Shown: one piece after another, positions 7,946-39,016 of the stretch | Layout: each line of letters opens with the position of its first letter | How positions within the stretch are numbered: position 1 is the stretch's first letter | DNA from: Sabellastarte sp. h YS-2021 | Taxonomy: Eukaryota > Annelida > Polychaeta > Sabellida > Sabellidae | Direction of reading: 5' to 3' | DNA length: 64,000 nucleotides | NCBI GenBank assembly: GCA_964017235.1 | Contig: OZ024932.1 | Location: forward strand, 80,541,451 to 80,605,450 | Notes under the pieces: model-generated | Told to the model about the DNA's origin: nothing | What the model saw: the letters and a program-made list of their open reading frames with translations, nothing else | The model's database searches: none | Made by a program: the position numbers and the translations under genes

Positions 7946-7949
7946 TCTT

Positions 7950-9345: not shown

Positions 9346-9703
9346 TCATAATGATTAATTAATCATTAATTACTCGGCCATTTCTTGACCAATCAATGCC
9401 AAAATCTAATGATTTCCAGATTTTAATAGAATGAATGTATTTGCCAAGTTTCAGGTGAATTGATAAAATTCCTTTCAAGTTATCATCCGGACAAGCTTCC
9501 CCATCGAAAAAAGACATTTTTGGTCATGTGACCTCTCTGATTGGTTGAAATGTCACTGCAGCATATTCAAAAAAATTCCCCAAGGCTACTGCCTAAACCT
9601 GCCAAATTTGAAAAGAATCCGCCTAACGGTTACAGAGTTATAAGGAAAACAAAATGCGGAACCGGCGGATCCGGCGGAGCCTGAAGGTCTCCCATACACA
9701 AAC

Positions 9704-9725
9704 AAGCGTCCCGCAAGGGACGCTT
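9704..9725 (+). other. 3' terminal hairpin of HLE-B copy 1
   Basis: Perfect 9-bp stem AAGCGTCCC / GGGACGCTT with loop GCAA; the element ends one base later (A at 9726). The loop is the reverse complement of that in the other two HLE-B copies. Confidence 0.92.
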
Positions 9726-9726
9726 A

Positions 9727-10045
9727 ATGATACTTTAAACCATTGCGAATTTTAGTTTAGTCTGACCTCACAAGGTTTGTATTTAAGGATAAATAATACA
9801 AGCTCTGAAAGTCTAAAAAGGTAACGATACCGAACTAACCTTCATTGAAAATGATGGGCACCATAATATGATGTTCAAAAGGCAACATTTTGTAATATCT
9901 GAATAATGGTTAAAAATCTAATCTGTAAGAAGTTGCTCAGCTTTAAATCTAAATTTGACACAATATAAAGCTGCAATTATTTATTGTGTGAATAGAAGTT
10001 TTTTAATGTTTACAAAACTCGATTATTTGTAACGCCAAAACTTAC
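9727..10045. other. AT-rich sequence, possible intron
   Basis: No repeat or frame recognised. If the minus-strand exon candidate at 10046-10153 is real, this is the start of its first intron. Confidence 0.3.
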
Positions 10046-10153
10046 CATACACATCCAAACAAGGATTAAAGTAATTGTCTTGATCCAAACTGACACAGGA
10101 ATTTTATTACTATCTTTCTTTTCAACAGCATCCAAGTCCAGCTTTTTATCCAT
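10046..10153 (-). CDS. Candidate first coding exon, small membrane-protein start
   Basis: Minus-strand frame of 36 codons from an ATG at 10153 to a strong splice donor (ATG|GTAAG, 10046/10045), in phase 0. The peptide starts MDKKLDLDAVEKKDSNKIP and ends in a hydrophobic stretch (WIKTITLILVWMCM) that could open a membrane segment. The first stop lies beyond the donor. Upstream on the same strand, at 10356-10363, is CCGGAAGT, an ETS-type promoter motif, with a second partial one near 10425; this suits a transcription start about 200 bases before the ATG. I do not recognise the family, and no second exon was found to the left, where transposons begin. It could be chance; the donor and promoter motif are the only support. 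Confidence 0.3.
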
Positions 10154-10355
10154 GGTGTTTTCTGAATTTGTAAAACAGCAATAAATGGTATTTTGACAGG
10201 CCAAATCAGTTTCCTCAAAATTTATATTAGTACACAATATTGATATTTATAAGTCGCAAAATGTGTTGCATGCAGATAAATATATTGGACACTTATATGG
10301 CAAATTTTTAATAACAGCTATTCACAGTCGTCGATCGACACTGAGAGAAATGTAC

Positions 10356-10363
10356 ACTTCCGG
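10356..10363 (-). promoter_or_regulatory. Possible ETS-type promoter motif
   Basis: CCGGAAGT on the minus strand, about 200 bases upstream of the candidate ATG at 10153. ETS/GABP motifs are common near animal transcription starts. A single 8-base match is weak evidence. Confidence 0.2.
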
Positions 10364-10653
10364 CAAGACTATCACAAACTTGTTTAAGACTTAAATAACA
10401 AAAAAATCAATCAACTTCCGTAAATATAAGGAAAGGAAATGTCCTGATGAGGCAAGTCCTGAAATATGTGATAGATAAATGAAGGGATACTTGGAAACCA
10501 TTCACATTTTAAAATATTTTGTTGTATTTGAATTATAGCATTTTCAGTGTGTATGAATACCAGTTCCATGTGTGATCAAAATGCTATGAACACCTGCACA
10601 ATGTGTGATTTATAGTTTTGTTTTTGCGGGTTATGTGCATAATTTGTCAACAT

Positions 10654-11288
10654 TCAGGACTTTTCAAAGTAAAAAACACCGGATTTTCCAATTTGAAATT
10701 GAAATAATGGCGAACTTGACAAAGGTGGCTGTTTCTTCCTTTTAACTCCTGCTGTTTTTCCCCCTGGGGAGGGGGCTGGAGTAGGGTTTATAGCAGCAGC
10801 CATTGTAAAAGTGTGCAGATTTTGCCATGGTTCTTGACCAGCCAGATTCGCTGACACAATACTCTGAAACTGGACAGTATTTTTTTCAGGCAGCATATTT
10901 CAGGTGTTGTCATATTTATTTATTTATTTGGGGTTTTACGTCGCTTTCAACACTGTACAGGTCATATCACGACGGGTAGTTGGAAGGGCAGAGGAAACCA
11001 GTACATAGAGTTCGCTAGGGTTATGTACTGTAAACTGCCGACCAACGGCAAGCAACTACCAGCTTTCCCACCTAAGGCCGTCACGGGGATCGAACCCCGG
11101 CCTCAGAGGTGGGAGGCGAGAGTGTTACCACTCTGCCACCGTGGCCCCCAGGTGTTGTCATATGAAAAACATTTAATTTAATTGATTTTTGTTTAACTAT
11201 GTCTTCAACATTTTCGAGTGAGTCGCCGGACATGTACTTCAAAAGAGGCTCATAAATATGTAATGCAGAGTTTGGCATAAAGATATAC
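10654..11288 (-). pseudogene. Exon-like stretch interrupted by a SINE
   Basis: On the minus strand a pyrimidine-rich acceptor (cttctgtag) near 11290 precedes a frame beginning MPNSALHIYEPLLKYMSG and running to 11164, where a SINE interrupts it. Removing the SINE and one target copy leaves two options: the same frame for about 40 more codons, or a frame one base away that stays open to 10654 and contains PTPAPSPGGKTAGVKRKKQ. I do not recognise either product. It may be a former terminal exon of an upstream minus-strand gene or a stray open frame. The SINE is younger than the sequence it splits. Confidence 0.22.
10916..11148 (-). mobile_element. tRNA-derived SINE with 15-bp target duplication
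   Basis: Minus-strand element starting GGGGCCACGGTGGCAGAGTGG, with a pol III A box near 11127-11138 and a B box (GGTTCGATCCC) at 11086-11096. A non-tRNA body follows, and it ends in AAATAAATAAATA. The same 15 bases (caggtgttgtcatat) flank it at 10901-10915 and 11149-11163, a perfect target-site duplication showing LINE-mediated insertion. Such SINEs are widespread in bivalves. Only one full copy is seen in this window. Confidence 0.93.
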
Positions 11289-11289
11289 T

Positions 11290-11512
11290 ACAGAAGAACA
11301 AGAATTCAATAGGATTGTACTGTGTCACCAGCCTTGGTTAAAGACTGAAGCAAATGAAATTCGAAAGGACAAAAATTATGCTGGAGTAATTGCCATGGCA
11401 ACACTTGTTACCTGTTCATGCCAAAAAGCTAATTAGCCCCATTTCCCTTTGCAACAAACATATCCCGAGAATCCCATATCAGAAGTCTGAAAACAATACA
11501 GAACAAGAGGGT
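11290..11512. other. No recognisable gene
   Basis: Possible intronic or intergenic host sequence between the exon-like stretch and HLE-H. Confidence 0.4.
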
Positions 11513-11815
11513 CAAAGATGCCCTAAGGTTAGCGATTGCTGTAATTAAATTTAGAAACAAGGAAAGAAATGTTAGGTCACCCAGTTAAGGTGAATGTGTT
11601 AGGCATGCTAAGAAATGTAAAACCTGTAATCTAGGTTACATAATTGTATCTATGCTATAAACGGACAAACGAAAGGACGGAATTACACCAAGTTCAAAAG
11701 CAACTTAGCTATGATGGTGATCTATGTCCCTGTCAAGTTTGAATTCGATTGGACAAAACGTTTTCAAGTTAGAGCCCGGAAACGGAACTGTTGACAGGCA
11801 GATAAACGGACAGAA
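11513..11815 (+). mobile_element. HLE-H fragment with 5' end
   Basis: Begins ACAAGAGGGTCAAAGATGCC directly after an A, as the other HLE families do, and runs into one unit of the 'aattcgattggacaaaacg' repeat. The same segment lies inverted at 48275-48608 and as an array at 24900-25820. It breaks off where M169 sequence starts near 11816, so the 3' part is lost or was replaced. Confidence 0.65.
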
Positions 11816-12668
11816 CAAATTCAAAATGGCCGCCATTTTGGGTGAGACAAAATTTTTTTGAAAATTGGGATGGCTACTCTGAAGACATACCCTGTGGGTC
11901 ACAAATTTTGTCGAAATCACTCTATCTAGCATGGTTTTCGAGATATAAGCATTTTTGTGTTTTGCAATTTTTGCAAAAAAATTTGAAAATTCAAAATAGC
12001 TGCCATTTTGGGCGAGACAAAAATTTTTTTGAAAATTGGGATGGCTACTCTGCAGAGATACCCTGTGGGTCAAAAAATTTGTTGAAATCGCTTACCTAGC
12101 ACGGTTTTCGAGATATAAGCATTTTTGTGTTTTGCAATTTTTGCGAAAAATTCAAAATGGCCGCCAGTTTTGGCAAGACAAAAATTGTCTCAAAATTGGC
12201 ATGGCTACACTGTAGAGATACCCTGTGGGTCAAAAATTTCGAAATCGCTCTATCTCACACAGTTTTCGAGATATAAGCATTTTGGTGTTTTCCTTATTTG
12301 CAAAATTCGTAGTGATTAATTAATCATCAATTACACGGCCATTTCTTAACCAATCAATGCCAAAATCTAATGATTTCCAGATTTTAATAGAGTGAATGTA
12401 TTTGCCAAGTTTCAGGTGAATTGATAAAATCCCTTTTAATTTATCATCTGGACAAGCTTACCCATCGAAAAAAAAAGACATTTTTGGTCATGTGATCTCT
12501 CTGATTGGTCGAAATGTCACTGCAGCATATTCAAAAATATTCCCCAAGGCTACTGCATACACCTGCCAAATTTGAAAAGAATCTGCCGAACAATCACAGA
12601 GTTATAAGGAAAACGAAATGCGGAGCCTGATTTTTTTATCCAAACAAGCGTCCCTTGCGGGACGCTTA
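11816..12668 (+). mobile_element. HLE-B copy 3 (5'-truncated)
   Basis: About 2.7 M169 units (11816-12300), the conserved HLE-B tail and the terminal hairpin. The tail carries several substitutions relative to copies 1 and 2 and has lost the GGCGGATCC-type run. The right flank (12669 onward) is HLE-D sequence, so this copy inserted into HLE-D. Confidence 0.8.
12646..12667 (+). other. 3' terminal hairpin of HLE-B copy 3
   Basis: Stem AAGCGTCCC / GGGACGCTT with loop TTGC; opposite loop orientation to copy 1. Confidence 0.92.
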
Positions 12669-12819
12669 AATACAAAGATTTGCATACTTTCAGAGTAGTG
12701 TTAGTTAAATAATGTTCAAGAAAAAATAACATCCAAGAGAAAGAAAATGTATGTAAAGGTTAAGTATTAAAACAAGACAATTCAATAGCTAGATGACAGC
12801 ATTAATTCTTACACTAAAA
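12669..12819 (+). mobile_element. HLE-D copy 1, left part
   Basis: Matches 52928-53050 of HLE-D copy 2 (gatactttcagag, then taagtattaaaacaagac). Its continuation is at 16109, beyond the inserted HLE-C. Confidence 0.7.
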
Positions 12820-12944
12820 ACAAGCATTCTGACGCATGCATTTATCTCCCGCCATATAAATTAGATGTACTAAAGATAGTGGAATATAAATTTTCTTGTG
12901 AGATGGAGGCACATGTAGAAGTGACAACAAGTTTAATGTTTGAT

Positions 12945-14290
12945 TGCAATACTTTTAAAGACAAAAGGCATTTACTCGCTTTAGTCGCTATTACTCTGCC
13001 ATCCAAAGAGCTACAGTTCTGCAACTTTATTATGCAGTAGATCAACCCAAAGTAGGTAAGGACGTATTTAGAAGAAATTGTCTACCTGTAATACTTTTAG
13101 AGATAAAAGACATTTACTCATTTTAGTAGCTATTACTCAGCTATCCAAAAAGCTACAGTTCTGCAACTTCACTATGTGGTAGATCACCCAAAAGTAGGTG
13201 AATGACTTATTTAGAAGAAATTGCCTACCTGTAATACTTTTAGAGATAAAAGACATTTTCTCATTTTAGTAGCTATTACTCAGTTATCCAAAGAGCTACA
13301 TTTCTGCAACTTCACTATGTGGTAGATCACCCAAAAGTAGGTGAATGACTTATTTAGAAGAAATTGCCTACCTGTAATACTTTTAGAGATAAAAGACATT
13401 TACTCATTTTAGTAGGTATTACTCAGCTATCCAAAGAGCTACAGTTCTGCAACTTCACTATGTGGTAGATCACCCAAAAGTAGGTGAATGACTTATTTAG
13501 AAGAAATTGCCTACCTGTAATACTTTTAGAGATAAAAGACATTTACTCATTTTAGTAGCTATTACTCAGCTATCCAAAGAGCTACAGTTCTGCAACTTCA
13601 CTATGTGGTAGATCACCCAAAAGTAGGTGAATGACTTATTTATAAGAAATTGCCTACCTGTAATACTTTTAGAGATAAAAGACATTTACTCATTTTAGTA
13701 GCTATTACTCAGCTATCCAAAGAGCTACAGTTCTGCAACTTCTCTATGTGGTAGATCACACAAAAGTAGGTGAATGACTTATTTAGAAGAAATTGTGTAT
13801 CTGTAAAACTTTTAGAGATAAAAGACATTTACTCATTTTAGTAGCTATTACTTAGCTATCCAAAGAGCTACAGTTCTGCAACTTCACTATGTGGTAGATC
13901 ACCCAAAAGTGGGTGAATGACTTATTTAGAAGAAATTGCCTACCTGTAATACTTTTAGAGATAAAAGACATTTGCTCATTTTAGTAGCTATTACTCAGTT
14001 ATCCAAAGAGCTACATTTCTGCAACTTCACTATGTGGTAGATCACCCAAAAGTAGGTGAATGACTTATTTAGAAGAAATTGCCTACGTGTAATATTTTTA
14101 GAGATAAAAGACATTTACTCATTTTGGTAGCTATTACTCAGCTATCCAAAGAGCTACAGTTGTGCAACTTCACTATGTGGTAGATCACCCAAAAGTAGGC
14201 GAATGACTTATTTAGAAGAAATTGCCTACCTATAACACTTTTAGAGATAAAAGACATTTACTCATTTTAGTAGCTCTTGCTCAGCTATCT
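12945..14290 (+). repeat. 143-bp tandem array (M143)
   Basis: About 9.4 units; gtagatcac recurs at 13179, 13322 and 13465. A branch of the M133/M155 family. HLE-C copy 2 has an M133 array in this position instead. Confidence 0.94.
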
Positions 14291-14329
14291 ACTCACTTAG
14301 CTATTGACCTACATCTGCAAAAGCAACAA

Positions 14330-15850
14330 AAATATAAAGGACACAGGAAAGTAAGCTTTTGAAAAACTAGATGAATAACAAATGAAAGGATCTGCCTAAC
14401 TTTGGTACTTGTGAAGGTATTTGACATTTATTTCCATCATAATTTTGCTACAAATAAGAAAATAGCTATTGCTCACTTATGACATGCAATGGAACCCCAA
14501 ACGATATGCCGTCTTATAGTTAAGGAAAAAGTAGCTGAACAAATTATTTTAGGAAAATCCTGTAACTGCAGTAGTTTTTCAGTTACAAGGGATTTACTCA
14601 ACAGTCACAATTTCAAAGTAGCTATTACTCAGCTGTCCAGTGTGCAACAGGTTTGCTGCTTTACTGTCTGATAGCTCATCAAAAACTAGATGAATAACAT
14701 ATTTGAAAATATTTCCCTAACTTGAATACTTTTGAAGATATTTGAAATTTACTCATGTCTTTATTTTGCTTCAAATAAGGAAATAGCTATTACTCACTTA
14801 TGGCATGCAATAGAATCCCAAACTATATGCCATCTTATAGTTAAGGAAAAAGTAGCTGAATAACATATTTTAGGAAAATACTCTAACTGAAATAGTTTTG
14901 GAGTTACAATGGATTTACTCAACAGTCACAATTTCAAAGTAGCTATTACTCAGCTATCCAATGTGCAACAGGTCTGAAACTTTACTATGTGATAGCTTAT
15001 CAAAAACTAGATGAATAACATATTTGAAAAGAATTCCCTAATTTTAATACTTTTGAAGATATTTGAAATTTACTCCTGTTGTTATTTTGCTTAAAATAAG
15101 GAAATAGCTATTACTCACTTATGGCATGCAATAGAATCCCAAACTGTATGCCATCTTATAGTTAAGGACAAAGTAGCTGAATAACATATTTTAGGGAAAT
15201 ACTCTAACTGCACTAGTTTTGGAGTTACAATGGATTTACTCAACAGTCACAATTTCAAAGTAGCTATTACTCAGCTATCCAATGTGGAACAGGTCTGAAA
15301 CTTTACTATGTGATAGCTTACCAAAAACTAGATGAATAACATATTTGAAAAGAATTCCCTAACTTTAATACTTTTGAAGATATTTGACATTTACTTATGT
15401 CATTATTTTGCTACAAATAAGAAAATAGCTATTACTCACTTATGACATGCAATAGAACCCCAAACTATATACCATCTTACAGTTAAGGACAAAGTAGCTG
15501 AACAACATATTTTAGGAAAATACTCTAACTGCACTAGTTTTGGAGTTACAATGGATTTACTCAACTGTAGAATTTCAAAGTAGCTATTACTCAGCTATCC
15601 AATGTGCAACAGATCTGAAACTTTACTATGTGATGGCTTATCAAAAAGTAGATGAACAACATATTTGAAAAGAATTCCCTAACTTTAATACTTTTGAAGA
15701 TATTTGACATTTACTTATGTCATTATTTGGCTACAAATAAGAAAATAGCTATTACTCACTTATGGCATGCAATGGGACCCCAAACTATGTACCATCTTAT
15801 AGCTAAGGACAAAGTAGCTGAACAACATATTTGAAGAAAAAGTTGTAACT
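14330..15850 (+). repeat. 321-bp tandem array (M321), HLE-C copy 1
   Basis: A dimeric monomer: two related halves of about 160 bp that have diverged ('aacatattttaggaaaatac' versus 'aacatatttgaaaagaattcc'). As 321 = 3 x 107, the same reading frame recurs in every unit and gives recurrent 60- to 95-codon frames that are not genes. Confidence 0.92.
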
Positions 15851-16033
15851 GCAATAGTTTTTGAGTTATGAGCCTTTTACTCCAAGTAGCTAAGATTGCT
15901 ATTACTCACTTATCTTTAGGCCTAAGTCCATAAAACCAAAAAAATTTTCGAGGGCGTGAAAATTCATTGGGACAATTAATTTACAAAAAATCTGTAGCTG
16001 TAGTAGTTTTGGAGAAATGTGCATGACTAACTA

Positions 16034-16064
16034 ACGCACACATGCACACACACACACACAGGCA
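16034..16064 (+). repeat. CA microsatellite in the HLE-C tail
   Basis: Short (CA)n run about 20 bases before the terminal hairpin, also present in copy 2 at 47566-47595. A microsatellite next to the 3' hairpin is a reported Helentron/HINE feature. Confidence 0.85.
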
Positions 16065-16083
16065 TCATTTCATAATCTCCCTC

Positions 16084-16099
16084 CCGGGCTAAAGCCCGG
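16084..16099 (+). other. 3' terminal hairpin of HLE-C copy 1
   Basis: CCGGGCT / AGCCCGG stem with a two-base AA loop, followed by CGGGAGATA at the element end. Confidence 0.88.
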
Positions 16100-16244
16100 C
16101 GGGAGATAATTATGAAGCTGTACAGTTTATTAATTGGAGAATAGCTGTCAATGGAAAAAGTACAATTATGTAAAAGTTCATATACTATTAATAATCAGTT
16201 GCAGCAATCCATATATCTTTGTCGTAAGAGAAAGACCTCTCAAA

Positions 16245-17540
16245 TATGGCAGGTGAACACACTTTGGCAGAGCCAAAGTTAAAGGTCACACAATGATGCA
16301 CACCTACACCCCCTAACCAATGTCCATACCAAGTGTCAACCTTCTATACCTTATGGAATCAGAGAAATAGCCCAGACAAGATTTTAAAACTCATGGTCAC
16401 TATGACAAGGTCAAAGGTCAAATCAAGGACACACTATGATGTTGCACACATACAACCCCCCAACCAATATCTCTACCAAGTTTCTACATGTCACGGTTTC
16501 CGAGATATAGCTCGGACAAGATTTTATAGGTCAAGATCACTACGGCAAGGTCTAAGGGAAACTCAAGGTCACACCATGATGTTGCACACCTACACCCCTT
16601 AACCAATGTCTCTACCAAGTATCAACTTCCTACACCTTACGGTTTCTAAGATATAGCCCGGACAAGATTTTATAGGTCAAGGTCACTATGGCAAGGTCAA
16701 AGGTCAAATCAAGGTCGCATCATGACGTTGCACACCTATAACCCCTCACCAATGTCCCTAACAAATATCAACTTCCTACATCGTACGGTTTCTGAAATAT
16801 AGCCCAGATATTTTATAGGTCCAGGTCACTATGGCAAGGTCAAAGGTCAAATCAAGGTAACACCATAACATTGCACACCTAGAGCCCCTAACCAATGTTC
16901 CTACCAAGTATCAACTTCCTACACCTTATGGTTGATGAGATATAGCCCGGACAAGATTTTATATGTCAAGGTCACTATGGCAAGGTCAAAGGTCCAATCA
17001 AGGTCACACCATGATGTTGCACACCTACACCCCTTAACCAATGTCCCTACCAAGTATCAACTTCCTATACCTTACGGTTGTTAAGATATGGCCCAGGCAA
17101 GATTTTATAGGTCAAGGTGACTACTGCAAGGTCAAAGGTCAAATCAAGGTCACCATGACAATGCACACCTATAACCCTTAACCAATATCCTACCATGTAT
17201 CAACTTCCTACACCTTACGGTTTCCCAAGATACAGCCCGGATAAGATTTTATAGGTCAAGGTCACTTCAGCAAGGTCAAATCAAGGTCACATCACGACGT
17301 TGCACACCTACAACCCCTAACTAATGTCTCTACCAAGTATCAACTTCCTACACCTTATGGTTGCCGAGATATAGCCCAGATAAACTTTTCAAACTCAAGG
17401 TCACTGCGGCCAGATCAAAGGTCAAATCAAGGTCAGACCATGACGTTGCACACCTACATCCCCTAAACAATGTCGCTACTAAGTATCAACTTCCTACACC
17501 TTACGGTTTCTGAGATACAGTCTAGACTAACTTTTACCCC
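16245..17540 (+). repeat. About 147-bp tandem array with AGGTCA direct repeats
   Basis: About nine units, each with two blocks of AGGTCA half-sites (caaggtcaaaggtcaaatc and ataggtcaaggtcac), separated by ttgcacacctacaccc and caacttcctacacc. Half-site spacing gives DR0, DR1 and DR5. Some units have lost sites by point changes. Confidence 0.92.
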
Positions 17541-17590
17541 TTGCCAACTCGACTGCACATCCAGACACCATGGATGAAAACAATACCCCG

Positions 17591-17608
17591 ACAGCCCTTA
17601 AGGGCTGT
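17591..17608 (+). other. 3' terminal hairpin of HLE-D copy 1
   Basis: Perfect self-complementary 18-mer ACAGCCCTTAAGGGCTGT. Confidence 0.9.
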
Positions 17609-17769
17609 GGGATAAAAAGTGTCACCATGGCAACAGTTATTACCAAAAAGTTGCCAAAATGTGTAATCACTCCTCTTTTAGTTCCTCTTGCCAAAAATAT
17701 GTCCTGAAACTATTGGCAAAAATCTTTGCATGGGTTTTCCTTATAAAAGAACCCACCAAATTAAAAGTG

Positions 17770-17950
17770 AAAATATAGCATCAGAGATGCCGGTACCCCA
17801 CAGCCTGGGGAAATAATTTGTCAAGAGAGAAACAGGTCTGAAATATGGCAAGTGAAAAACCTTTGGCAAAGCCAAAGTTAAAGGTCACACCATGATGCAC
17901 ACCTACACCCCTATCCAATGTCACTCCCAAGTAAACTCACAGTTACCATG
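17770..17950 (+). mobile_element. HLE-D 5'-end fragment
   Basis: Contains GCATCAGAGATGC and taccccacagcc, as at 52850-52875, then the 'ttggcaaagccaaagttaaaggtcac' stretch that opens the array in copy 1. TACCCCACAGCC is nearly the reverse complement of the HLE-D 3' end (GGCTGTGGGATA), which identifies the 5' subterminal repeat. Truncated after less than one monomer. Confidence 0.65.
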
Positions 17951-18150
17951 ACAAGGTCATGTCCTGGACTTGGTTTAATTGTCTTTAGTTTCCAACTTCT
18001 TTTGTTCAAAAAGACACCACAAACAGTTCACCAACACAACTTCTCCCAACACCTATTTCTTCACTACAATATTCTATTCGATCATCCAGTATCAAATACA
18101 CCTTTTCAAACAATTTGGTAAATTGAATTAATGACCAAATTAGTTATAGA

Positions 18151-20000
18151 ACTAGACATTGCGTCTCGACACAGTGTATCTCCAGACGGGACCTGGTTGA
18201 AGCATGAATGTGTCGGGCTTGAGCCTTTTTCCTGGAGCACTAGGTCAGGATTCGCCATAGTAGTGCACAAAGAGGGCCCGACTTACTCCCCCCCCCTCCC
18301 CTCCTTAAATAGGCAACCACCATGGTGTTGTCCGTAGCTATGATAGCAATAAGGAACTCTTTTAGGGCCAAAAGACTGCCTTGGTTCCAGACACTTTATG
18401 TGTAACTTGCTTCTGGAAGGGACCAAGTTCCCCTTGCAGTGTGTTCCCCTAAATGAGCGCTCGCCCTTCTTGATGCATCTGTAAGGATTTGCAGAGCATA
18501 TTTAAGTAGGTGTAATGGTTGACCTTGAAACACATTGTCATCCTACAACCACCATTTTAGATGGGGTGGAGTGAACTGGGATCACCTTTTCTAGTGAGTC
18601 TGGTACCCTTCAGCTGTTCTTCAAGTGCCATTGTATCGGCCTCATGTGGAGGCGACCTAGGTGGACTTGCTTCTGTATGGGTGTCAGTAACCCACACAAC
18701 CCCAATGTGGAAAACACTAATAGTCATTTATGAGAACTGTGACCCCTGGTCTGATTAACAGATAAATTTACCATTGCTTGAGTTGTGAAAACCGGCAAAT
18801 GGGTTATAATCTTGAGGGGAAGGCTGAGTTTAGAAACTCGTTCCCCTGGTGTCAGCTGACACTGCTCACAGGCTGGGTAAAAGGCAAGCTGGGTGGCCAG
18901 TCTAGGAGGGTGGATCACTGTATCTCACCGGAACCTGTAAGAAAAACTTGATGAACCTCCGCAGTAACTGATACAGCAGACTTCTTGCTGGCAGTAGGCT
19001 GACCAGTCTGGTTGAGTTTGGCATCTCACGGGACCAGTAACTGGCTGGTGTGGGGTCTGATAAGATAAGGCTGACAGGTAGTTGGACAAATCTTGTTGGG
19101 AAGTCTTCTTATCTATAGTCACTTTCGACCAGCTAGGAGGTCCTGACAGTAGGCTGGCTGACTGGTGTCATAGGTTCAGACAAGTCATCTCGCCAAGACC
19201 AATGATTGGTATAAGAATTTATCTGTAACCAATTTCCGTGGGCAGTAACTGGTTGGTCTGACGCGGCCACTTGGACCCTTAAAAGGCTACTGCTGATCTG
19301 TTAGCCAGTCCTGTGGACCTGCCCAGTAAAAGGGCCTGACCGGCTATAGGTGAAACAATGCTCTGTAACCAGTTCCTGTTGGCTCTACAGTACTGCGACA
19401 ACTCATAGGGGCTGGCAGAACTGGGCGAATTAGGCTACATCTTGGCAGGGGTAGGCTTATATGAAACATTAACTGCCTTCTTCCTCTCCGTAACTGTGGA
19501 ATCAGCAGATTTTCTTTGTAACCAACAATCCTCTGTAACCAGTAAGTCTGGATACTGGTATTTCATCATGTACTCACCTCCAAAGCGATTTTCAATAGTT
19601 TCCATGCAATATAGTCAGTAATAAGCGTGAAAATATCTCCAAAAAGGCCAAAAATGACCTCGGTTGGGTACTTTGGATGACCTGTGGATGACCTTCAATG
19701 AAGAGCTTCAAGGTCAAATTTCTGCATGCTTACAGAGGACATATATATGTATTATATACACCAGCCATAGGATGATCTAACTTTCTGTATATGAGAACTG
19801 GGCCAAAATGTGAAAAATGCGGTTTCAGAGTTTAGTTTTCAGAGGCCACCAGTGACCATGAAATTGAAGGTCAAGGTCACAAAACAATAGCGTTCGTGAC
19901 ATTGCCCATATTTACCCACATACCAAATTTGAAAGGTCTAACTAAAATATTTTTAAGTTATCGCATCCGAAAGGAAATCTATGCGGCAGTGGCAGGAGAT
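18151..20000 (+). mobile_element. HLE-E copy 1, plus orientation, 3'-truncated
   Basis: Begins ACTAGACATTGCGTCTCGAC after an A. The 1.85-kb body is GC-richer than its surroundings and has no long frame; degenerate 'taaccagttcctg' phrases recur. It is the inverted counterpart of 21390-23272. It stops short of the terminal hairpin: M155 sequence begins at about 20001. Confidence 0.8.
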
Positions 20001-21255: not shown

Positions 21256-21389
21256 CAACTGATTTAAGCTACTTTAAGAGGCCAGTGAGTGAGTGTGAAC
21301 TAGCATGTCCCCCTAGTGGTCATGTGACCACGCCAGTAAACAATCTTCATTATTTTTGTTGGCCATCCTAGAGTGTGGATGTATATTAT
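21256..21389 (-). repeat. Host locus X, copy 2, part a
   Basis: Near-identical inverted copy of 54217-54345 (taggatgg, gaccactagggggacatgctag and so on). Part b is at 23273-23420. HLE-E copy 2 sits between them. Confidence 0.88.
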
Positions 21390-23272
21390 TGTATCCCCGG
21401 ACGAAAGTCGGGGATACTTAGGATTCAGTATGGTCACGCCGCCGCCACAGAGATTTCCTTTTGAACGGGATAACTTTAAAAATATTTTAGTAAGACCTTT
21501 CAAATTTGGTATGTGGGTATATATGGGCAATGCCACGAACGCTATTGTTTTGTGACCTTGACCTTCAATTTCATGGTCACTGGTCACTCTTAAAGGTCAG
21601 ATTTTGGCCATTTTTCACATTTTGGCCCAGTTCTCATATACAGAAAGTTAGATCATCCTATGGCTGGTATATATAATACATATATATGTCTTCTATAAGC
21701 ATGCAGAAATTTAACTTTAAAGCTCTTCATTGAAGGTCATCCACAGGTCATCTAAAGTACCTGACCGAGGCCATTTTTGGCCTTGTTGGAGATATTTTCA
21801 CACTTACTGCTGACTATATTGCATGGAAACTATTGAAAATGGCTTTGCTGATTCCACAGTTATGGACAGGAAGAAGGCAGTTGTTTAATATAAGCCTACC
21901 CCTGCTGAGATGTAGTCTAATCTTGCCCAGTTCTGCCAGCTCCTATGAGTTTTCGCAGAACTGTGGAGCCAACAGGAACTGGTTACAGAGAATTGCTTCA
22001 CCTATAGCCGGTTAGGCCCTGGTACTGGGCAGGTCCACAGGACTGGCTAACAGACCAGCAGTAGCCTTTTAAGGGTCCAAGTGGCCATCTCAGATCAACC
22101 AGTTACTGCCCGAGGAAATTGGTTACAGATAAATTCTTATACCGGTCATTGGTCTTGGTGAGATGACTTGTCTGAATCTACCACACCAGTCAGCCAGCCT
22201 ACTGTCGGGACCTCCTACCTGGTCGAAAGTGTTAGACCAACCAGTTACTGCCCGAGGAAATTTGGTTACAGAGAAATTCTTGTACCAGTCACTGGTCTCA
22301 GTGACATGACTGTCTCAACCTACCAGACCAGTCAGCCAGCCTACTGTCAGGACCTCCTAGCTGGTCGAAAGTGACTATAGATAAGAAGACTTTCCCAACA
22401 AGATTTGGTCAGCCTACTGCCAGCAAGAAGTCTGCTGTATCAGTTACTGTGGAGGTTCATCAAGTTTTTCTTACAGGTTCCAGTGAGATATAGTGATCCA
22501 CCCTCCTAGACTGGCCACCCAGCTTGCCATTTACCCAAAGTGTGAGCAGTGTCAGCTGACAACAGGGGCCTGAGTTTCCAAACTCAGCCTTCCCCTCAAG
22601 ATTATAACCCATTTGCCGGTTTTCACAACTCAAGCAATGGTAAATTTATCTGTTAATCAGACCAGGGGTCACAGTTCTCATAAATGGCTATAAGTGTTTT
22701 CCACAGTGGGTTGTGTGGGTTACTGACACCCATACAGAAGCAAGTCCACTTAGGTCGCCTCCACATGAGGCCGATACAGTGACACTTGAAGAACTGCTGA
22801 AGGGTACCAGACGCACTAGAAATGGTGATCCCAGTTCACTCCACCCCATCTAAAATGGTGGTTGTAGGATGACAATGTGCTTCAAGGTCAACCATTACAC
22901 CTACTTAAATATGCTCTGCAAATCCTTACAGATGCATCAAGAAGGGCGAGTGCTCATTTAGGGGAACACACTGCAAGGGGAACTTGGTCCCTTCCAGAAG
23001 TAAGTTACACATAAAGTGTCTGGAACCAAGGCGGTCTTTTGGCCCTAAAGGAGTTCCAAGACCTCTGCTTGAACCTTATTGCTACCATAGCTACGGACAA
23101 CACTATGGTGGTTGCCTATTTAAGGAGGGGGGGGGGGTAAGTTGGGCCCTCTTTGTGCCTTACTATGGAGAATCCTGACCTGGTGCTCCAGGAAAAAGGC
23201 TCAAGCCCGACACATTCACGCTTCAACCAGGTCCCGTCTGGAGATACACTGCGTCGAGATGCAATGTCTAGT
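21390..23272 (-). mobile_element. HLE-E copy 2, complete, 1883 bp
   Basis: On the minus strand it begins ACTAGACATTGCATCTCGAC and ends with the hairpin and GGGGATACA. The uninterrupted relative at 54216|54217 fixes both edges, with A|A at the junction and no target duplication. It carries a 144-bp internal direct duplication (starts near 22094 and 22238) that copy 1 has once. Its 3' part resembles the HLE-F tail (atcgc / aggaaatct / GGC-rich / TCCCCGACTTTCGTC), so E and F share an end. No protein is encoded. Confidence 0.85.
21394..21414 (-). other. 3' terminal hairpin of HLE-E copy 2
   Basis: Minus-strand TCCCCGAC, loop TTTC, GTCCGGGGA; stem with one bulged base. Same hairpin as HLE-F at 60398-60418, in the same loop orientation. 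Confidence 0.85.
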
Positions 23273-23420
23273 TTTATTTCGGATTTTTATTAAGTTTTGG
23301 AGTTTTTGTACCTTACTGAGTTCTGTGATGAGGCATATGTTTGGACAATGTCTTCTCAGGGCAAAATTAGGTAACAACAGAGGAAGAATTATTAGTTTAT
23401 GGACATTGGAACTAGTGGTG
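23273..23420 (-). repeat. Host locus X, copy 2, part b
   Basis: Inverted match to 52748-52846 plus 54185-54216. It lacks the HLE-D element present there, so 23304|23305 is the empty site of HLE-D copy 2. Confidence 0.85.
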
Positions 23421-24899
23421 GGATCGCCAGCTTAAATGACAGATCGAGCATCACTTGTTAGAAGCGAGTTGAACTCGAGTCAAACTCGAGTAATTTTCGG
23501 GATAAAGTATTTCGTTTATTAGCGAAAATATTTTACATAACCGTACATGAGGCAAAACTTTGAACTGGAAATAGGCTTTCGCAATATAATTTAAGTTAAA
23601 TCTTCATTAATTTAAGCCAAAATAAAGTAAAAATGCAACATATTTTTGAAAATTTCAGATATTTCGGTTGTTTTGGTGAAGTGTCAGCCTTAGATGGTGA
23701 AAATATATACATTTTCAAAAACTCGAGTTTCACTTGCGCCGATCGATGTGACCCCCAATTATCGCCCATCGAGTTGTAACTCGAGTTTGCGTCAACTCGT
23801 CCTAGCACTAGTTGGAACATCCACCATTTTTGTAACATGGCGGCACTGGTATTTCTTTGTTGCAGGAAGACGAGTCTTCAATTCAGAAATTTTCTTTAAA
23901 AACCAGGTATTTAGAAGGAATTTGGACAAGTGCATTTATATACATTTGCAATTTTTTCACAAATATGAAAGATTTGGGACAATAATTTTCTGAAACTGTC
24001 GGCAGTCATTCTAGCTCCGACAGGGACAGTTTACATGTTGCTATGCAATGAAGGAAGGCATTCTGAAGAGCAGAGACAATTCAATTAATCAGGTTTCCTT
24101 GTTGGGCAGTTCTTTGTTGTCTAACAGGAGGGTTTGACATAGTTCTTCTAACATTTCTGTGAAGATGACTTTAGTAGACTGATCAATGCATTTTTCACTC
24201 CTAAGGAGTTTTTTCCTGGTGCACCCATTGTCAGATTTCCATGGAACTTCATTCTTTATAGGATGTCATTGGAGAAAGGACTGCTACACATGACTGGGAA
24301 AGGAACAACAGGTCGGATAGTACAGTAAATTAAATTACAAAATCCTCTTCATCAGCTAGAAACAGAAGGGGATCTTTCTTCCAGTCCTTTTACAGGCAGA
24401 GTTAGGAGGAGGAAGGAACTACCTGGGTTCAGGAAGCGTTTTTTCAGGTATACTTTTCCTTATCCTGATAGCAAGATGATAATTTTCAGCCATACTTTTT
24501 CACAGAAGAGAGGGTAGCAGGAAGGTTTGCTTGTCCATGTTCCTAAAGCAGTTGTGGACAGGTGCTTTGAAAGTAAAAAGAAAATGTAAGAGACAACAGT
24601 TTTGATAAAAGCTGTTTATGAAATGATCGACAAAAGCCTGATAACACCAGTCAAATGGTCATGTTGTTGCAATTTTACAGTTTATCGGTTGTGAGAAGCT
24701 GGGAAGAGATGGCTACCACTAATAGTCGAGGCCAGGTGAACAAGCCTTTACATGTACCTTTAATATCACAAATATTGGAATAGTTGCATTTTGTTACTAG
24801 TAAGTGAATGGGTGTTTTCTCTCATTTCCTTACAGTAGCATTCTTTCATATCCTGATTCACGCAAATTTTTAGGCGGGCTGCATGTAACCAACCCACCT
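23421..24899. other. No firmly recognisable gene
   Basis: Contains repeated ACTCGAGT words at 23460-23490 and near 23725 and 23775. A short ATGGCGGC-type frame at 23836 stops after 20 codons. Several 'ttcc/gga' phrases occur at 24080-24600, but no domain could be read. It may be host intergenic or an unrecognised old transposon. Confidence 0.4.
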
Positions 24900-25820
24900 A
24901 TTAGATTGATGTGTCCGACGTCCATCTGTCTGTCCACATTTTCGTTTCCAGATTCTAACTTGAAAACGGTCCAATCGAATTCAAACTTGACAGGGAGATA
25001 GATCACCATCATAGCAAGGTTCCTTTCAAAATTGGTGTAATTCTGTCCGTTCGTTTGTCCGGTTTCTCTCTGTTTGTCTGTCCGTCAACATTTCTGTTTC
25101 CGGACTCTAACTCGAAATCTGTCAAAATTTCTGTTTCCGAACTCTAACTCGAAAACGGCTTGTCCAATCGAATTCAAACTTGACAGGGAGGTAGATTACC
25201 ATCACAGCTAGGTTCCTTTCAAAATTGGTGTAATTCCGTCTGTTTGTTTGTCTGTCCATCACCATTTCCATTTCTGGACACTAACTCAAAAATACTTTGT
25301 CCAATCGAATTCAAACTTGACAGGGGGATAGGTCAACCAACCTGCCTATTAGATTGATGTGTCCGACGTCCATCTGTCCGTCCACATTTCTGTTTCCGGT
25401 CTCTAACTCGAAAACGGTTTGTCCAATCAAATTTAAACTTAACAGGGATATAGATCACCCTCATACCTAGGTTCCTTTCGAAATTGGTGTAATTCCGTCT
25501 GTTTGTTTGTCCGGTTTCTCTCTGTTTGTCTGTCCGTCAACATTTCTGTTTCCGGACTCTAACTCGAAATCTGTCAAAATTTCCGTTTCCGGTCTCTAAC
25601 TCGAAAACAGCTTGTCCAATCAAATTCAAACTTGACAGGGAGATAGATTACCATCACAGCTAGGTTCCTTTCAAAATTGGTGTAATTCTGTCCGTTCGTT
25701 TGTCTGTTTTTTGTCTGTTTGTCTGTCCATCAACATTTCCATTTTCAGACACTAACTCATAGCTAGGTTCCTTTCGAAATTGGTGTAATTCCATCTGTTC
25801 GTTCGTCCGTTTTTTGTCCG
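24900..25820 (+). repeat. Irregular tandem array of the HLE-H monomer
   Basis: Five to six units with 'ccaatcgaattcaaacttgac' and 'ggttcctttcaaaattgg', starting at irregular 128-192 bp intervals because a 'tgtttgtctgtccg' pyrimidine-rich stretch varies in length. The same monomer occurs singly at 11700-11815 (inverted) and 48275-48420. The LINE is inserted at its right edge. Confidence 0.88.
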
Positions 25821-26016
25821 TTTTTTTTTTTTGTTTTTTTTTTTAATTCATATACAAGAGAAAAACAACTATACACGTGCACACAAAATAGAAAAAAAAG
25901 CATTTCTCAAAATACAGTAACGTGAAGTTAACTTTGAATAACCATTGATTCATAAACTACAAGTGTATAAAGTAAATAGTTAATTTTCAATTTAACTACA
26001 AGGCACTTTGATACTT
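25821..26016 (-). mobile_element. LINE 3' untranslated region and poly(A) tail
   Basis: Minus-strand sequence after the ORF2 stop, ending in a run read as T(12)GT(11) on the plus strand at 25821-25844, the poly(A) tail of the retrotransposed copy. Confidence 0.75.
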
Positions 26017-26301
26017 TCAGCTCCCTTTTATTCTCTCAAATATTGACCTAGTTGCTAGGAACTGTTCTAACTGGTTATTGGTTTTGGCTATATATTCTTG
26101 ATCAATGTATACACTTCTTAGAAAATTTTGAAAACCAAATAAATCAAGTATTTTTGAATTTCTAGAACATGTAAATATGTACTTTTTTGCAACAATAATA
26201 GTAATATTTTGGGGGAAAAAGTCTACTTCCTTTTCAAGTATACCAAAGATAACTAGAGGATCGCTCGCAAAAAAAAAAGATAATGTTTTTGCATAGCAAA
26301 A
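26017..26301 (-). pseudogene. LINE ORF2 C-terminus, separated from the rest by HLE-B
   Basis: Minus-strand frame ending at the TGA at 26017-26019. It contains DPLVIFGILEKEVDFFPQN, IVAKKYIFTCSRNSKILDLF and IAKTNNQLEQFLATRSIFER, typical of the very C-terminal end of L1/Tx1-type ORF2 proteins. It is the continuation of the segment ending at 31642, 5340 bp away, with HLE-B copy 2 in between. The frames at the junction differ by one base, so a separate frameshift (perhaps in the A10 run at 26269-26278) accompanies the insertion. It is non-functional. Confidence 0.85.
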
Positions 26302-26764
26302 ACAAAGCGTCCCAAAAAGGATATAAAGATGAGTGCTAAAGTATTAAGAAAATGCTTCGTTTCTAGCCTTATACTGTTGTGGCAACCAAAGTCAGCGCAG
26401 TCTGCTCTATCTAGCACTATTTTCAAGATATAAGCATTTTTGTGTTTTGCAAAAAATTAAAAAATTCAAAATGTCCGCTATATTTGGCGAGACAAAAATA
26501 TTTTGAAAATTGGCATGGCTACTCTGCAGAGATACCCAGCAGGTCAAAAATTTTGTTGAGTTCGCTCCATATAGCACGGTTTTCGAGATATAAGCATTTT
26601 TGTGTTTTGCAAAAACTTTGAAAATTCAAAATGGCCACCATTTTTGGGGAGTCAAAAATTTTTGTCAAGACCACTGCCGTGGTGTGTATCTCCCGCCGAG
26701 CATTAAAGCAGAAGAAATAGCTTTTCCGAGATATTCACAATTTTTCATTTTCGTGTGTGAAAGG

Positions 26765-29700
26765 TCTTCCAAAAGTAGGTGAATGAGTTATTTGAGAAAA
26801 ATTGGCTATCTGCAATACTATTAAGAGATAATTCACATTTACTCATTTTGAGTAGGTGAATAATTATCTATGGGTCTGAAACTTCACCAAGTGAAAGCTC
26901 TCCCAAAAGTAGGTGAATGAGTTATTTGAGAAAAATTGGCTATCTGCAATACTTTTAGAGATAATTCGCATTTACTCATTTTGAGTAGGTGAGTAATTAG
27001 CTATGGGTCTGAAACTTCACCATGTGAAAGCTCTCCCACAAGTAGATGAATGAGTATTTGAAAAAAATTGGGTATCCGCAATACTTTTACAGATAATTAG
27101 CATTTACTCATTTTGAGTAGGTGAATAAATAGCTATGGGTCTGAAACTTCACCAAGTGAAAGCTCTGCCAAAAGTAGGTGAATGAGTTATTTGAGAAAAA
27201 TTGGCTATCTGCAATACTTTTAGAGATAATTCAACATATTTGACAAAACTCCTTTAAATTGAATAGTTTTGCTGTTAAAGTGAAAGCTCTCCCAAAAGTA
27301 GGTGAATGGGCTATTTGAGAAAAATTGGCTATCTGCAATACTTTTAGAGATAATTCACATTTACTCATTTTGAGTAGGTGAATAATTAGCTATGGGTCTG
27401 AAACTTCACCAAGTGAAAGCTCTGCCAAAAGTAGGTGAATGAGTTATTTGAGAAAAATTGGCTATCTGCAATACTTTTAGAGATAATTCGCATTTACTCA
27501 TTTTGAGTAGGTGAGTAATTAGCTATGGGTCTGAAACTTCACCAAGTGAAAGCTCTCCCAAAAGTAGGTGAATGAGTTATTTGACAAAAATTGGCTATCT
27601 GCAATACTTTTAGAGATAATTCGCATTTACTCATTTTGAGTAGACGAGTAATTAGCTATGGGTCTGAAACTTCACCAAGTGAAAGCTCTCCCAAAAGTAG
27701 GTGAAAGATTAATTTGAGAAAAATTGGCTATCTGCAATACTTTTATAGAGATAATTCGCATTTACTCATTTTGAGTAGGTGAGTAATTAGCTATGGGTCT
27801 GAAACTTCACCAAGTGAAAGCTCTCCCAAAAGTAGGTGAATGAGTTATTTGAGAAAAATTGGCTATCTGCAATACTTTTAGAGATAATTCACATTTACTC
27901 ATTTTGAGTAAGTGAATAATTAGCTATGGGTCTGAAACTTCACCAAGTGAAAGCTCTGCCAAAAGTAGGTGAATGAGTTATTTGAGAAAAATTGGCTATC
28001 TGCAATACTTTTAGAGATAATTCGCATTTACTCATTTTGAGTAGGTGAGTAATTAGCTATGGGTCTGAAAGTTCACAGAGTGAAAGCTCTCCCAAAAGTA
28101 GGTGAATGAGTTATTTGAGAAAAATTGGCTATCTGCAATACTTTTAGAGATAATTCACATTTACTCATTTTGAGTAAGTGAATAATTAGCTATGGGTCTG
28201 AAACTTCACCAAGTGAAAGCTCTGCCAAAAGTAGGTGAATGAGTTATTTGAGAAAAATTGGCTATCTGCAATACTTTTAGAGATAATTCGCATTTACTCA
28301 TTTTGAGTAGGTGAGTAATTAGCTATGGGTCTGAAACTTCACAGAGTGAAAGCTCTCCCAAAAGTAGGTGAATGAGTTATTTGAGAAAAATTGGCTATCT
28401 GCAATACTTTTAGAGATAATTCGCATTTACTCATTTTGAGTAGGTGAGTAATTAGCTATGGGTCTGAAACTTCACCAAGTTAAAGCTCTCCCAAAAGTAG
28501 GTGAATGAGTTATTTGAGAAAAATTGGCTATCTGCAATACTTTTAGAGATAATTCACATTTACTCATTTTCAGTAGGTGAGACTCATTTTGAGTAGGTGA
28601 GTAATTAGCTATGGGTCTGAAACTTCACCAAGTGAAAGCTCTCCCAAAAGTAGGTGAATGAGTTATTTGAGAAAAATTGGCTATCTGCAATACTTTTAGA
28701 GATAATTCACATTTACTCATTTTCAGTAGGTGAGTAATTAGCTATGGGTCTGAAACTTCACCAAGTGAAAGCTCTCCCAAAAGTAGGTGAATGAGTTATT
28801 TGAGAAAAATTGGCTATCTGCAATACTTTTAGAGATAATTCGCATTTACTCATTTTGAGTAGGTGAGTAATTAGCTATGGGTCTGAAACTTCACAGAGTG
28901 AAAGCTCTCCCAAAAGTAGGTGAATGAGTTATTTGAGAAAAATTGGCTATCTGCAATACTTTTAGAGATAATTCGCATTTACTCATTTTGAGTAGGTGAG
29001 TAATTAGCTATGGGTCTGAAACTTCACCAAGTGAAAGCTCTCCCAAAAGTAGGTGAATGATTAATTTGACAAAAATTGGCTATCTGCAATACTTTTAGAG
29101 ATAATTCACATTTACTCATTTTGAGTAGGTGAATAATTAGCTATGGGTCTGAAACTTCACCAAGTGAAAGCTCTCCCAAAAGTAGGTGAATGATTAATTT
29201 GACAAAAATTGGCTATCTGCAATACTTTTAGAGATAATTCGCATTTACTCATTTTGAGTAGGTGAGTAATTAGCTATGGGTCTGAAACTTCACCAAGTGA
29301 AAGCTCTCCCAAAAGTAGGTGAATGAGTTATTTGAGAAAAATTGGCTATCTGCAATACTTTTAGAGATAATTCGCATTTACTCATTTTGAGTAGGTGAGT
29401 AATTAGCTATGGGTCTGAAACTTCACCAAGTGAAAGCTCTCCCAAAAGTAGGTGAATGAGTTATTTGAGAAAAATTGGCTATCTGCAATACTTTTAGAGA
29501 TAATTCGCATTTACTCATTTTGAGTAGGTGAGTAATTAGCTATGGGTCTGAAACTTCACCATGTGAAAGCTCTCCCACAAGTAGATGAATGAGTTATTTG
29601 ATAAAAATTGGGTATCCGCAATACTTTTACAGATAATTAGCATTTACTCATTCTGAGTAGGTAAATAATTAGCTATGGGTCTGAAACTTCACCATGTGAA

Positions 29701-29965
29701 AGCTCTCCCAAAAGTAGGTGAATGAGTTATTTGAGAAAAATTGGCTATCTGCAATACTTTTAGAGATAATTCGCATTTACTCATTTTGGGTAGGTGAGTA
29801 ATTGGCTATGGGTCTGAAACTTCACCATGTGAAAGCTCTTCCAAAAGTAGGTGAATGAGTTATTTGAGAAAAATTGGCCATCTGCAATACTTTTAGAGGT
29901 AATTCGCATTTACTCTTTTTGAGTAGGTGAGCAATTAGCTATGGGTCTGAAACTGCACCAAGTGA
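26765..29965 (+). repeat. 133-bp tandem array (M133), about 24 units
   Basis: Highly homogeneous. Two sub-variants differ at 'accaagtgaaagctc' versus 'acagagtgaaagctc' and at 'attcgcattt' versus 'attcacattt', and these partly alternate. A partial duplication lies near 28570-28600. Confidence 0.96.
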
Positions 29966-29974
29966 AAGCTCTTT

Positions 29975-31255
29975 GGGATAGCTGCTCTGCAGAGATACCC
30001 TGAAGATAAAAAATTTCGTCGAAATCGCTCTATGTAGCACGGTTTTCGAAATATTAGCATTTTTGTGTTTTGCAATTTTTGCGCAAAAATTCGAAAATTC
30101 AAAATGGCCGCCATTTTTGGCAAGACAATTTTTTTTTGAAAATTGGCATGGCTACTCTGCAGAGATACCCTGTGGGTCAAAAATTTCGTCGAAATCGCTC
30201 TATCTAGCACGGTTTTCGAGATATAAGCATTTTTGTGTTTTGCAATTTTGCGAAAAATTCGAAAATTCAAAATGGCCGCCATTTTTTGCGAGAAATTTTC
30301 TGTTTGAAAATTGGCATGGCTACCCTGCAGAGATACCCTGTGGGTCAAAAATTTTGTCGAAATCGCTCTATCTAGCAGGGTTTTTGAGATATAAGCATTT
30401 TTATGTTTTGCAATTTTTGCGAAAAATTCGAAAATTCAAAATGGCCGCCATTTTTGGCGAGACAAAATTTTTTTGAAAATTGGCATGGCTACTCTGCAGA
30501 TATACCCTGTGGGTCAAAAATTTCGTCGAAATCGCTCTATCTAGCACGGTTTTCGAGATATAAGCATTTTTATGTTTTGCAATTTTTGCGAAAAATTCGA
30601 AAATTCAAAATGGCCGCCATTTTTGGCGAGAAATTTTTTGTTTGAAAATTGGCATGGCTACCCTGCAGATATACCCTGTGGGTCAAAAATTTCGTCGAAA
30701 TCGCTCTATCTAGCACGGTTTTCGAGATATAAGCATTTTTATGTTTTGCAATTTTTGCGAAAAATTCGAAAATTCAAAATGGCCGCCATTTTTGGCGAGA
30801 CAAAAATTTTTTCAAAATTGGGATAACTACTCTGCAGAGATACCCTGTGGGTCCAAAATTTCGTCGATATCGCTCTATCTAGCACGGTTTTCGAGATATA
30901 AGGATTTTTGTGTTTTGCAATTTTTGCGAAAATTTCGAAAATTCAAAATGGCCGCCATTTTTGGCGAGACAAAAATTTTTTGAAAATTGGGAAAAGTACT
31001 CCGCAGAGATATCCTGCGGGTCAAAAATTTTGTCGAAATTGCTCTATCTAGCACGGTTTTTGAGATATAAGCATTTTTGTGTTTTGCAATTTTTGCGAAA
31101 ATTTCGAAAATTCAAAATGGCCGCCATTTTGGGCGAGACAAAAATTTTTTGAAAATTGGGAAAACTACTCCGCAGAGATACCCTGCGGGTCAAAAATTTT
31201 GTCGAAATCGCTCTATCTAGCACAGTTTTCGAGATATAAGCATTTTTGTGTTTTC
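29975..31255 (+). repeat. 169-bp tandem array (M169), HLE-B copy 2
   Basis: About 7.6 units matching 7950-9345 unit for unit, including the change from 'ggcatggctac' units to 'gggaaaactac' units toward the 3' side. Confidence 0.96.
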
Positions 31256-31618
31256 CTTATTTGGAAAATTCGTAATGATTAATTAATCATTAATTACTCG
31301 GCCATTTCTTGACCAATCAATGCCAAAATCTAATGATTTCCAGATTTTAATAGAATGAATGTATTTGCCAAGTTTCAGGTGAATTGATAAAATTCCTTTC
31401 AAGTTATCATCCGGACAAGCTTCCCCATCGAAAAAAGACATTTTTGGTCATGTGACCTCTCTGATTGGTTGAAATGTCACTGCAGCATATTCAAAAAAAT
31501 TCCCCAAGGCTACTGCCTAAACCTGCCAAATTTGAAAAGAATCCGCCTAACGGTTACAGAGTTATAAGGAAAACAAAATGCGGAGCCGGCGGAGCCAGAT
31601 GCTCTCCCATACACAAAC

Positions 31619-31640
31619 AAGCGTCCCTTGCGGGACGCTT
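31619..31640 (+). other. 3' terminal hairpin of HLE-B copy 2
   Basis: Stem AAGCGTCCC / GGGACGCTT with loop TTGC, as in copy 3 and reverse-complementary to the loop of copy 1. Confidence 0.93.
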
Positions 31641-32422: not shown

Positions 32423-32488
32423 ATAGAACTTATCTGGGCTTACTGTGGATGAAAATAATTTACTCCATGGAGAATCGGGAGATAGAAT

Positions 32489-38996: not shown

Positions 38997-39016
38997 AGTG
39001 CCCGTGAACGGGCACT
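38997..39016 (+). other. 5' hairpin of HLE-A
   Basis: Perfect 9-bp stem AGTGCCCGT / ACGGGCACT with a GA loop, ten bases inside the 5' end. Confidence 0.92.

Follow-up and report, generated by a model that had tools for sequence, protein, structure and literature searches.

Can the hairpin at the end of a Helentron-like element turn around in place? The question was raised by a stretch of 64,000 nucleotides from the annelid Sabellastarte sp. h YS-2021 (GCA_964017235.1, contig OZ024932.1, positions 80,541,451 to 80,605,450 of the forward strand), referred to here as the window. A sequence-only reading of the window had described three copies of one family, HLE-B, that share a 9-bp terminal stem and lie with their tails in the same orientation but carry the loop GCAA in copy 1 and its reverse complement, TTGC, in copies 2 and 3. 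A pattern scan confirmed this description, as AAGCGTCCC-N4-GGGACGCTT was found exactly at three sites on the + strand, with identical 9-bp stems (Table 1), and there were no matches in 100 shuffles of the window. All six of the tail signatures tested were present upstream, in the same orientation, in all three copies, and copies 1 and 3 were 93% identical across one block of the tail (235 bases) and 92% identical across another (157 bases). A diverged hairpin at 2788-2809 (AAGCGCCC...GGGATGCTT), which has three mismatches to the HLE-B pattern and is followed by AATTA, may be an older relative of the HLE-B terminus.

Table 1. Terminal palindromes, tails and other hairpins of the HLE-B and HLE-A families in the window
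Feature	Position	Strand	Loop or form	Remarks
HLE-A terminal palindrome	1432..1461	+	GACA	one stem mismatch (left-arm C); window hairpin scan
HLE-B conserved tail, copy 1	9331..9703	+		follows 133-bp and 169-170-bp tandem arrays (6878-9330)
HLE-B terminal palindrome, copy 1	9704..9725	+	GCAA (minority form)	exact pattern match; G-type tail GAAGGTCTCCC
HLE-B tail, copy 3	12306..12645	+		follows 170-bp array (11817-12305)
HLE-B terminal palindrome, copy 3	12646..12667	+	TTGC (majority form)	exact match; diverged tail, end branch 0.092 in tree
Internal palindrome of 169-bp repeat	31113..31131	+	CAAAATGG-CCG-CCATTTTG	control
HLE-B tail, copy 2	31255..31618	+		follows 133-bp and 169-bp arrays (26757-31254)
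HLE-B terminal palindrome, copy 2	31619..31640	+	TTGC	exact match; pairs in tree with L059 (GCAA), support 97/89
HLE-A 5' hairpin	38997..39016	+	AGTGCCCG-TGAA-CGGGCACT	window hairpin scan
HLE-A 5' subterminal repeat	39017..39031	+	GTGTCAGCTGACTGA	inverted within terminal palindrome (AGTCAGCTGACA)
HLE-A terminal palindrome	44986..45015	+	GACA	left-arm C mismatch; window hairpin scan
HLE-A terminal palindrome	55264..55293	+	TGTC (minority form)	perfect 13-bp stem; tail co-oriented with the other two

The published anatomy of Helitron2/Helentron elements and HINEs includes a 5' hairpin, a subterminal inverted repeat, a 3' palindrome, and central tandem arrays (PMC5148889, PMC7492417). Of these features, HLE-A, a second family found in the window, shows the 5' hairpin, the tandem arrays in its center, and a subterminal repeat of which an inverted copy lies within its terminal palindrome, and HLE-B has tandem arrays and a terminal palindrome. 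As judged from these features, both families resemble non-autonomous Helentrons (HINEs) in their anatomy, and by analogy the terminal palindrome would be the 3' end in each. In HLE-A the 5' hairpin was found 2.8 to 15 kb upstream and in fitting orientation for 25 of the first 30 terminal palindromes listed, where 0.7 would be expected at random (the comparison drew on 30 of the 100 places listed for the terminal palindrome and 33 of the 100 listed for the hairpin). The assignment of the AGTGCCCG hairpin to a third family was dropped in favor of the HLE-A 5' end because of this co-placement with the terminal palindromes. For HLE-B, neither a 5' end nor a subterminal repeat was found in the copies compared; an occurrence of AAGCGTCCC at 26305 was considered as its 5' end and rejected, as locus L067 shares the left-hand sequence there and not the right-hand. 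Elements of the HINE type insert at TT and do not duplicate their target. Our sample comprised 109 distinct oriented HLE-B copies, all with a flank like CAAAC, and on their right the first place was A in 107, the second A in all 109, and the third T in 86. The Rep domain Helitron_like_N (PF14214) had 24 matches in the assembly (best, 2.2e-31), several of them in long stop-free frames, and no match in 14 control genomes. Beside the HLE-B copy that ends at 31640, frames at 31829-35247 on the - strand looked by eye like a LINE-type endonuclease and reverse transcriptase.

To see how often each loop occurs, the assembly (1.786 Gb, 647 contigs) was searched by pattern, and the perfect HLE-B hairpin was matched 7203 times. 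With the loop orientation set by the upstream flank CAAAC, there were 5175 TTGC loops (2595 + 2580) and 631 GCAA loops (318 + 313), the latter being 10.9% of the 5806 copies. Intermediate loops, which in large numbers were to count against flipping, proved to be few. The 16 loops that mix TTGC and GCAA letter by letter (KYRM) gave 6054 oriented copies (3040 + 3014), of which the 14 intermediates, taken as the total minus TTGC and GCAA, made up only 248 together, and those seen among 100 listed KYRM matches were TCGC (twice), TCAC, and TTAC. This lack of intermediates argues against stepwise substitution.

Loops were also tallied for the two tail subtypes of HLE-B, C (younger) and G (older). 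Among the first 100 matches listed of 4749 for the C subtype, the loops were TTGC (86), TTGT (6), GCAA (5), ACAA (1), TTTC (1), and TTAC (1), and among the first 100 listed of 1676 for the G subtype they were TTGC (65), TTGT (11), GCAA (20), ACAA (3), and TTAT (1). In these 200 listed matches pooled, therefore, TTGC was present 151 times, TTGT 17 times, GCAA 25 times, and ACAA 4 times, TTTC, TTAC, and TTAT being one- or two-step variants of TTGC, and no loop halfway from TTGC to GCAA was seen in either set of 100. TTGT and ACAA look like the CpG-decay products of the two loop orientations. The two sets of 100 were taken from the top of the genome order, lie entirely on contig C1, and include a few local duplicates; a perfect right arm was not demanded of them, and one GCAA row (C1:46519303) lacks it. 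The loop tallies for the tail subtypes, HLE-A, the HLE-A 5' hairpin, and the shared junction described below were counted by eye.

The same change was observed in HLE-A, whose tails in the window are 98% and about 82 to 84% alike in the same orientation. In the window hairpin scan its palindrome was placed at 1436 and 44990 with GACA and at 55264 with TGTC. Across the assembly there were 6428 GACA loops and 66 TGTC loops (1.0% of 6494); in the search for GACA the right-arm A was required, whereas the search for TGTC allowed any base there, and with this A required the TGTC count is 65. The 96 T-initial HLE-A loops were TGTC (65), TACA (12), TATC (7), TGCC (3), TCTC and TTTC (2 each), and TGTT, TCTT, TAGA, TATA, and TGAC (1 each). 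A single substitution separates TACA from GACA, and likewise each of TATC, TGCC, TCTC, TTTC, TGTT, and TGAC from TGTC; the only two-step intermediate between GACA and TGTC among the T-initial loops was TATA, found once. This spectrum of T-initial loops is the mark of inversion.

The stem was perfect in 64 of the 66 flipped HLE-A copies, the mismatches being a left-arm C in one and a right-arm T in another, with no case of the mirrored right-arm G. Among the 100 GACA copies listed first, 10 had the left-arm C, versus 1 of the 66 flipped copies (Fisher P = 0.05). We had considered locating the inversion breakpoints by means of this stem mismatch, but the mismatch counts only suggest that perfect stems flip more. 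The HLE-A hairpin is longer and predicted to be more stable than that of HLE-B (about -14 versus -10 kcal/mol), yet its flips are about tenfold scarcer, a difference not foreseen by a simple model based on hairpin stability.

The terminal palindrome of parvoviruses occurs in both orientations, flip and flop, and near-equal numbers of the two are expected. The sequence-only reading had compared the HLE-B hairpin with these termini and had expected roughly balanced GCAA and TTGC. Obligate rolling-hairpin replication with termini of this type would account for a palindromic terminus in both orientations across thousands of copies, as in HLE-B, but it would also produce flip and flop nearly equally. 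Instead, the majority loop outnumbers the minority loop about 8:1 in HLE-B, and in HLE-A the ratio is about 97:1, so that the balance did not materialize. The flipped share also differed between the HLE-B subtypes: in the first 100 listed of each, 6 of 100 C-type copies and 23 of 100 copies of the older G subtype were flipped (Fisher P = 0.001), and estimates from the sampled copies were 7% (5 to 9) and 27% (15 to 53), respectively. We therefore consider it very unlikely that flip/flop is an obligate step of HLE replication.

Next, we considered whether the loop of HLE-B had changed once or repeatedly. Of the 109 sampled copies, 15 without the start of the core tail were excluded, leaving 94 in the alignment, and 3 more (two TTGT and one ACAA) were excluded to leave 91 in the tree. 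The GCAA copies were deliberately enriched; beyond the window they were drawn from contig C1 (1 to 141 Mb) and the TTGC copies from C1:1.5-15.9 Mb. The tree of 91 copies required at least 19 loop changes (19 to 23 in bootstrap trees), of which only 3 were forced by well-supported branches, and a single GCAA clade was rejected (p-AU = 0.0044). Among GCAA x TTGC pairs, 32 of 1560 had no differences at all in the core tail; these pairs share members, and they are the 1560 of 1798 that remained after pairs containing a copy with 20 or more gaps had been dropped. Both loops were present in all four tail haplotypes seen at least five times. The copies thus bear out repeated switching rather than two clean clades. 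When the loop labels were shuffled on the tree, the mean was 24.7 changes compared to the 19 of the real labels, and 2 to 3 of 500 shuffles were as low. The loop label is therefore partly clustered on the tree, as if some of the flipped copies had multiplied.

A single ancient inversion, or four substitutions, after which gene conversion or recombination carried the new loop from tail to tail, might also place both loops on similar tails, and some tail sites do show all four combinations with one another. However, tail sites s67 and s422 remain associated over 355 alignment columns (r2 = 0.60), whereas the association of the loop with s422, only about 26 bases away, is low (r2 = 0.13). This contrast argues against a simple recombinational shuffling of the loop, as does the occurrence of the same change in a second family against a single ancient event, and we regard such an origin as highly improbable. 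From the loop counts, the changes on the tree, and the pairs with identical tails and opposite loops, single-step inversion is well supported as the form of the loop change. The earlier proposal of one inversion rather than four substitutions is accordingly upheld by the scarcity of intermediates, the recurrence, and the like behavior of the second family.

How, then, might a loop be inverted within an intact stem? We propose that the HINE-like 3' terminal palindrome has probably been inverted in place, in one step and repeatedly, by template switching as a by-product of copying. Because both stem arms read as the same sequence from either strand, an inversion would keep the stem and replace the loop by its reverse complement (TTGC to GCAA in HLE-B and GACA to TGTC in HLE-A), which would explain why the stem is unchanged and only the loop is turned. 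A nascent 3' end that had copied one arm would pair with the opposite strand at the complementary arm, copy the loop from there, and then return. The flip would be a by-product at a hairpin-forming end, affecting a minority of copies, and the flipped terminus would seemingly still be functional. We infer template switching as the cause; the flip may take place either in host replication after insertion or in the element's own single-strand copying.

Inversion of hairpin loops has precedents, and here it is found at the ends of Helentron-like transposons, in two families. In rRNA hairpins, inversions of loops that typically have four bases have been described, and template switching has been proposed for them (PMC8794818). 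As in HLE-B, the whole loop is inverted and the stem is intact, but among the 69 rRNA cases reported as loop inversion only, 85.5% of the loops are partly their own reverse complement, whereas TTGC agrees with GCAA at no position. HLE-B also differs in presenting 631 flipped copies in one family, a count of copies rather than of events. The small inversions reported for plastid hairpins have the same stem with a loop in either orientation, as in HLE-B, and run in both directions on the tree (PMC6824564); there, however, the DNA is that of an organelle and the inversions concern 11 loci across species, compared with thousands of nuclear transposon ends in one genome. Since loop inversion is thus reported outside transposons (PMC6824564, PMC8794818), a hairpin-ended transposition intermediate is not required. 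Homoplastic microinversions in birds are, like those of HLE-B, recurrent and nuclear, but their hotspots are described as not associated with stem-loops (PMC3123225). In a literature search by titles and the beginnings of abstracts, with subscription journals mostly outside its reach, no report of loop orientation polymorphism at Helitron ends was found. The available text on Cg_HINE, the non-autonomous Helentrons of the Pacific oyster, likewise does not describe the polymorphism seen in HLE-B (PMC7492417).

The frequency of the flip was then related to the age of the copies. C-type copies (25 TTGC and 35 GCAA) had a median divergence of about 0.3% from the majority row of their subtype, G-type GCAA copies (n = 27) had a median of 1.2%, and two G-type TTGC copies had values of 1.5 and 2.5%. 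Within the young C subtype there was no difference in divergence between GCAA and TTGC copies (P = 0.43), a comparison of low power in which the copies are too uniform in age. The rounded mean divergences gave a very rough rate of 14 to 18 flips per hairpin per substitution per site. By comparison, human-chimpanzee microinversions of 17 to 33 nt, all flanked by inverted repeats, are reported to be five orders rarer than substitutions (PMC8755829). That the HLE-B rate is far above this published nuclear background suggests that the terminal palindrome is often single stranded, with something, such as transposition, exposing the HLE-B end in this form.

Two further observations bear on a role for transposition. 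In the internal palindrome of the 169-bp repeat, no flips were found in 156 oriented CCG sites, where identical contexts were counted once and two apparent flips were misoriented sites; for about 82 others no orientation could be assigned. The stem of this control is weaker and has eight bases, and a flip of its three-base loop alters one letter. In the HLE-A 5' hairpin there were likewise no flips, as the loop was TTCA (as the pattern reads) in all 33 loops displayed of 7779 matches, a number still compatible with a 1% rate. An occasional flip coupled to transposition, in which the displaced single strand folds at the 3' palindrome and nicking, self-priming, or resolution inverts a fraction of the termini, would be consistent with flips at the terminal palindromes of both families and their absence from these two controls. 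It would also fit the rate far above the microinversion background, the Rep domains in the genome, and the clustering of the loop label, which suggests multiplication of some flipped copies. Against it, no intermediate has been seen, the internal control has the weaker stem, the 33 loops are compatible with a rate of 1%, and flipped copies make up a greater proportion of the older subtype. We thus view coupling to transposition as the leading alternative, possible although doubtful. A more specific and rather unlikely version is that a Helentron-like intermediate with its 3' palindrome folded is nicked and recopied, and that the terminus is thereby turned in a fraction of transpositions. The elements would then be an occasional flip/flop system whose flip fraction, differing about tenfold between the families, would record the use of this route.

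Under the favored explanation, template switching during copying, as under coupling to transposition, the flipped ends are of interest for the function of the hairpin. In Helraiser, the palindrome near the Helitron 3' end acts as a transposition terminator; a changed loop, together with a broken pair at its base, was reported to be at the level of the hairpin deletion, and an exchanged stem kept about 90% (PMC4778049). Helraiser ends are of another type (TC/CTAG), and in HLE-B the inverted loop is common. The thousands of little-diverged copies with either loop in two families amount to a natural mutagenesis of the 3' hairpin signal, and the HLE copies suggest that inversion of the loop is tolerated. 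Little is known of how Helitron-type ends are handled, and the HLE loops offer a natural test of how these ends are copied; the measurable flip fraction could reveal when the 3' end is single stranded. A further lesson, relevant to subfamily trees, is that hairpin loops can come to differ at four positions through a single event.

Several local arrangements were also noted. At 21391-21417 and 60394-60422 the window contains two related hairpins whose nine-base loops look reverse complementary by eye; the 62 bases around them match on opposite strands, so that this may reflect strand only and not a flip. At the loci L030 (TTGC) and L105 (GCAA), all 55 flanking bases compared were shared, and the likeness continues at 98 to 99% with one gap (L116). 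This flank is itself a repeat, with an element-free version at 57628-59120 of the window, and an identical junction in it carries 12 HLE-B hairpins genome-wide, 11 with TTGC and 1 with GCAA, which points to either a favored target or a composite element. Of 138 array positions, L105 has 12 that differ from those in both L030 and L117; L117 is identical to L030 over these 138 but departs from it at 5 of 340 tail positions. The shared flank of L030 and L105 was not used as a demonstration of a flip after insertion, since the target is repeated and independent insertion into a favored target is possible. Finally, the locus L040 has hairpins at 1468 and 1501 (locus + strand) that represent a 33-base tandem duplication of the HLE-B hairpin and 11 flanking bases; both are TTGC in the orientation of the element, and the duplication is perhaps the product of slippage or of an error in termination.
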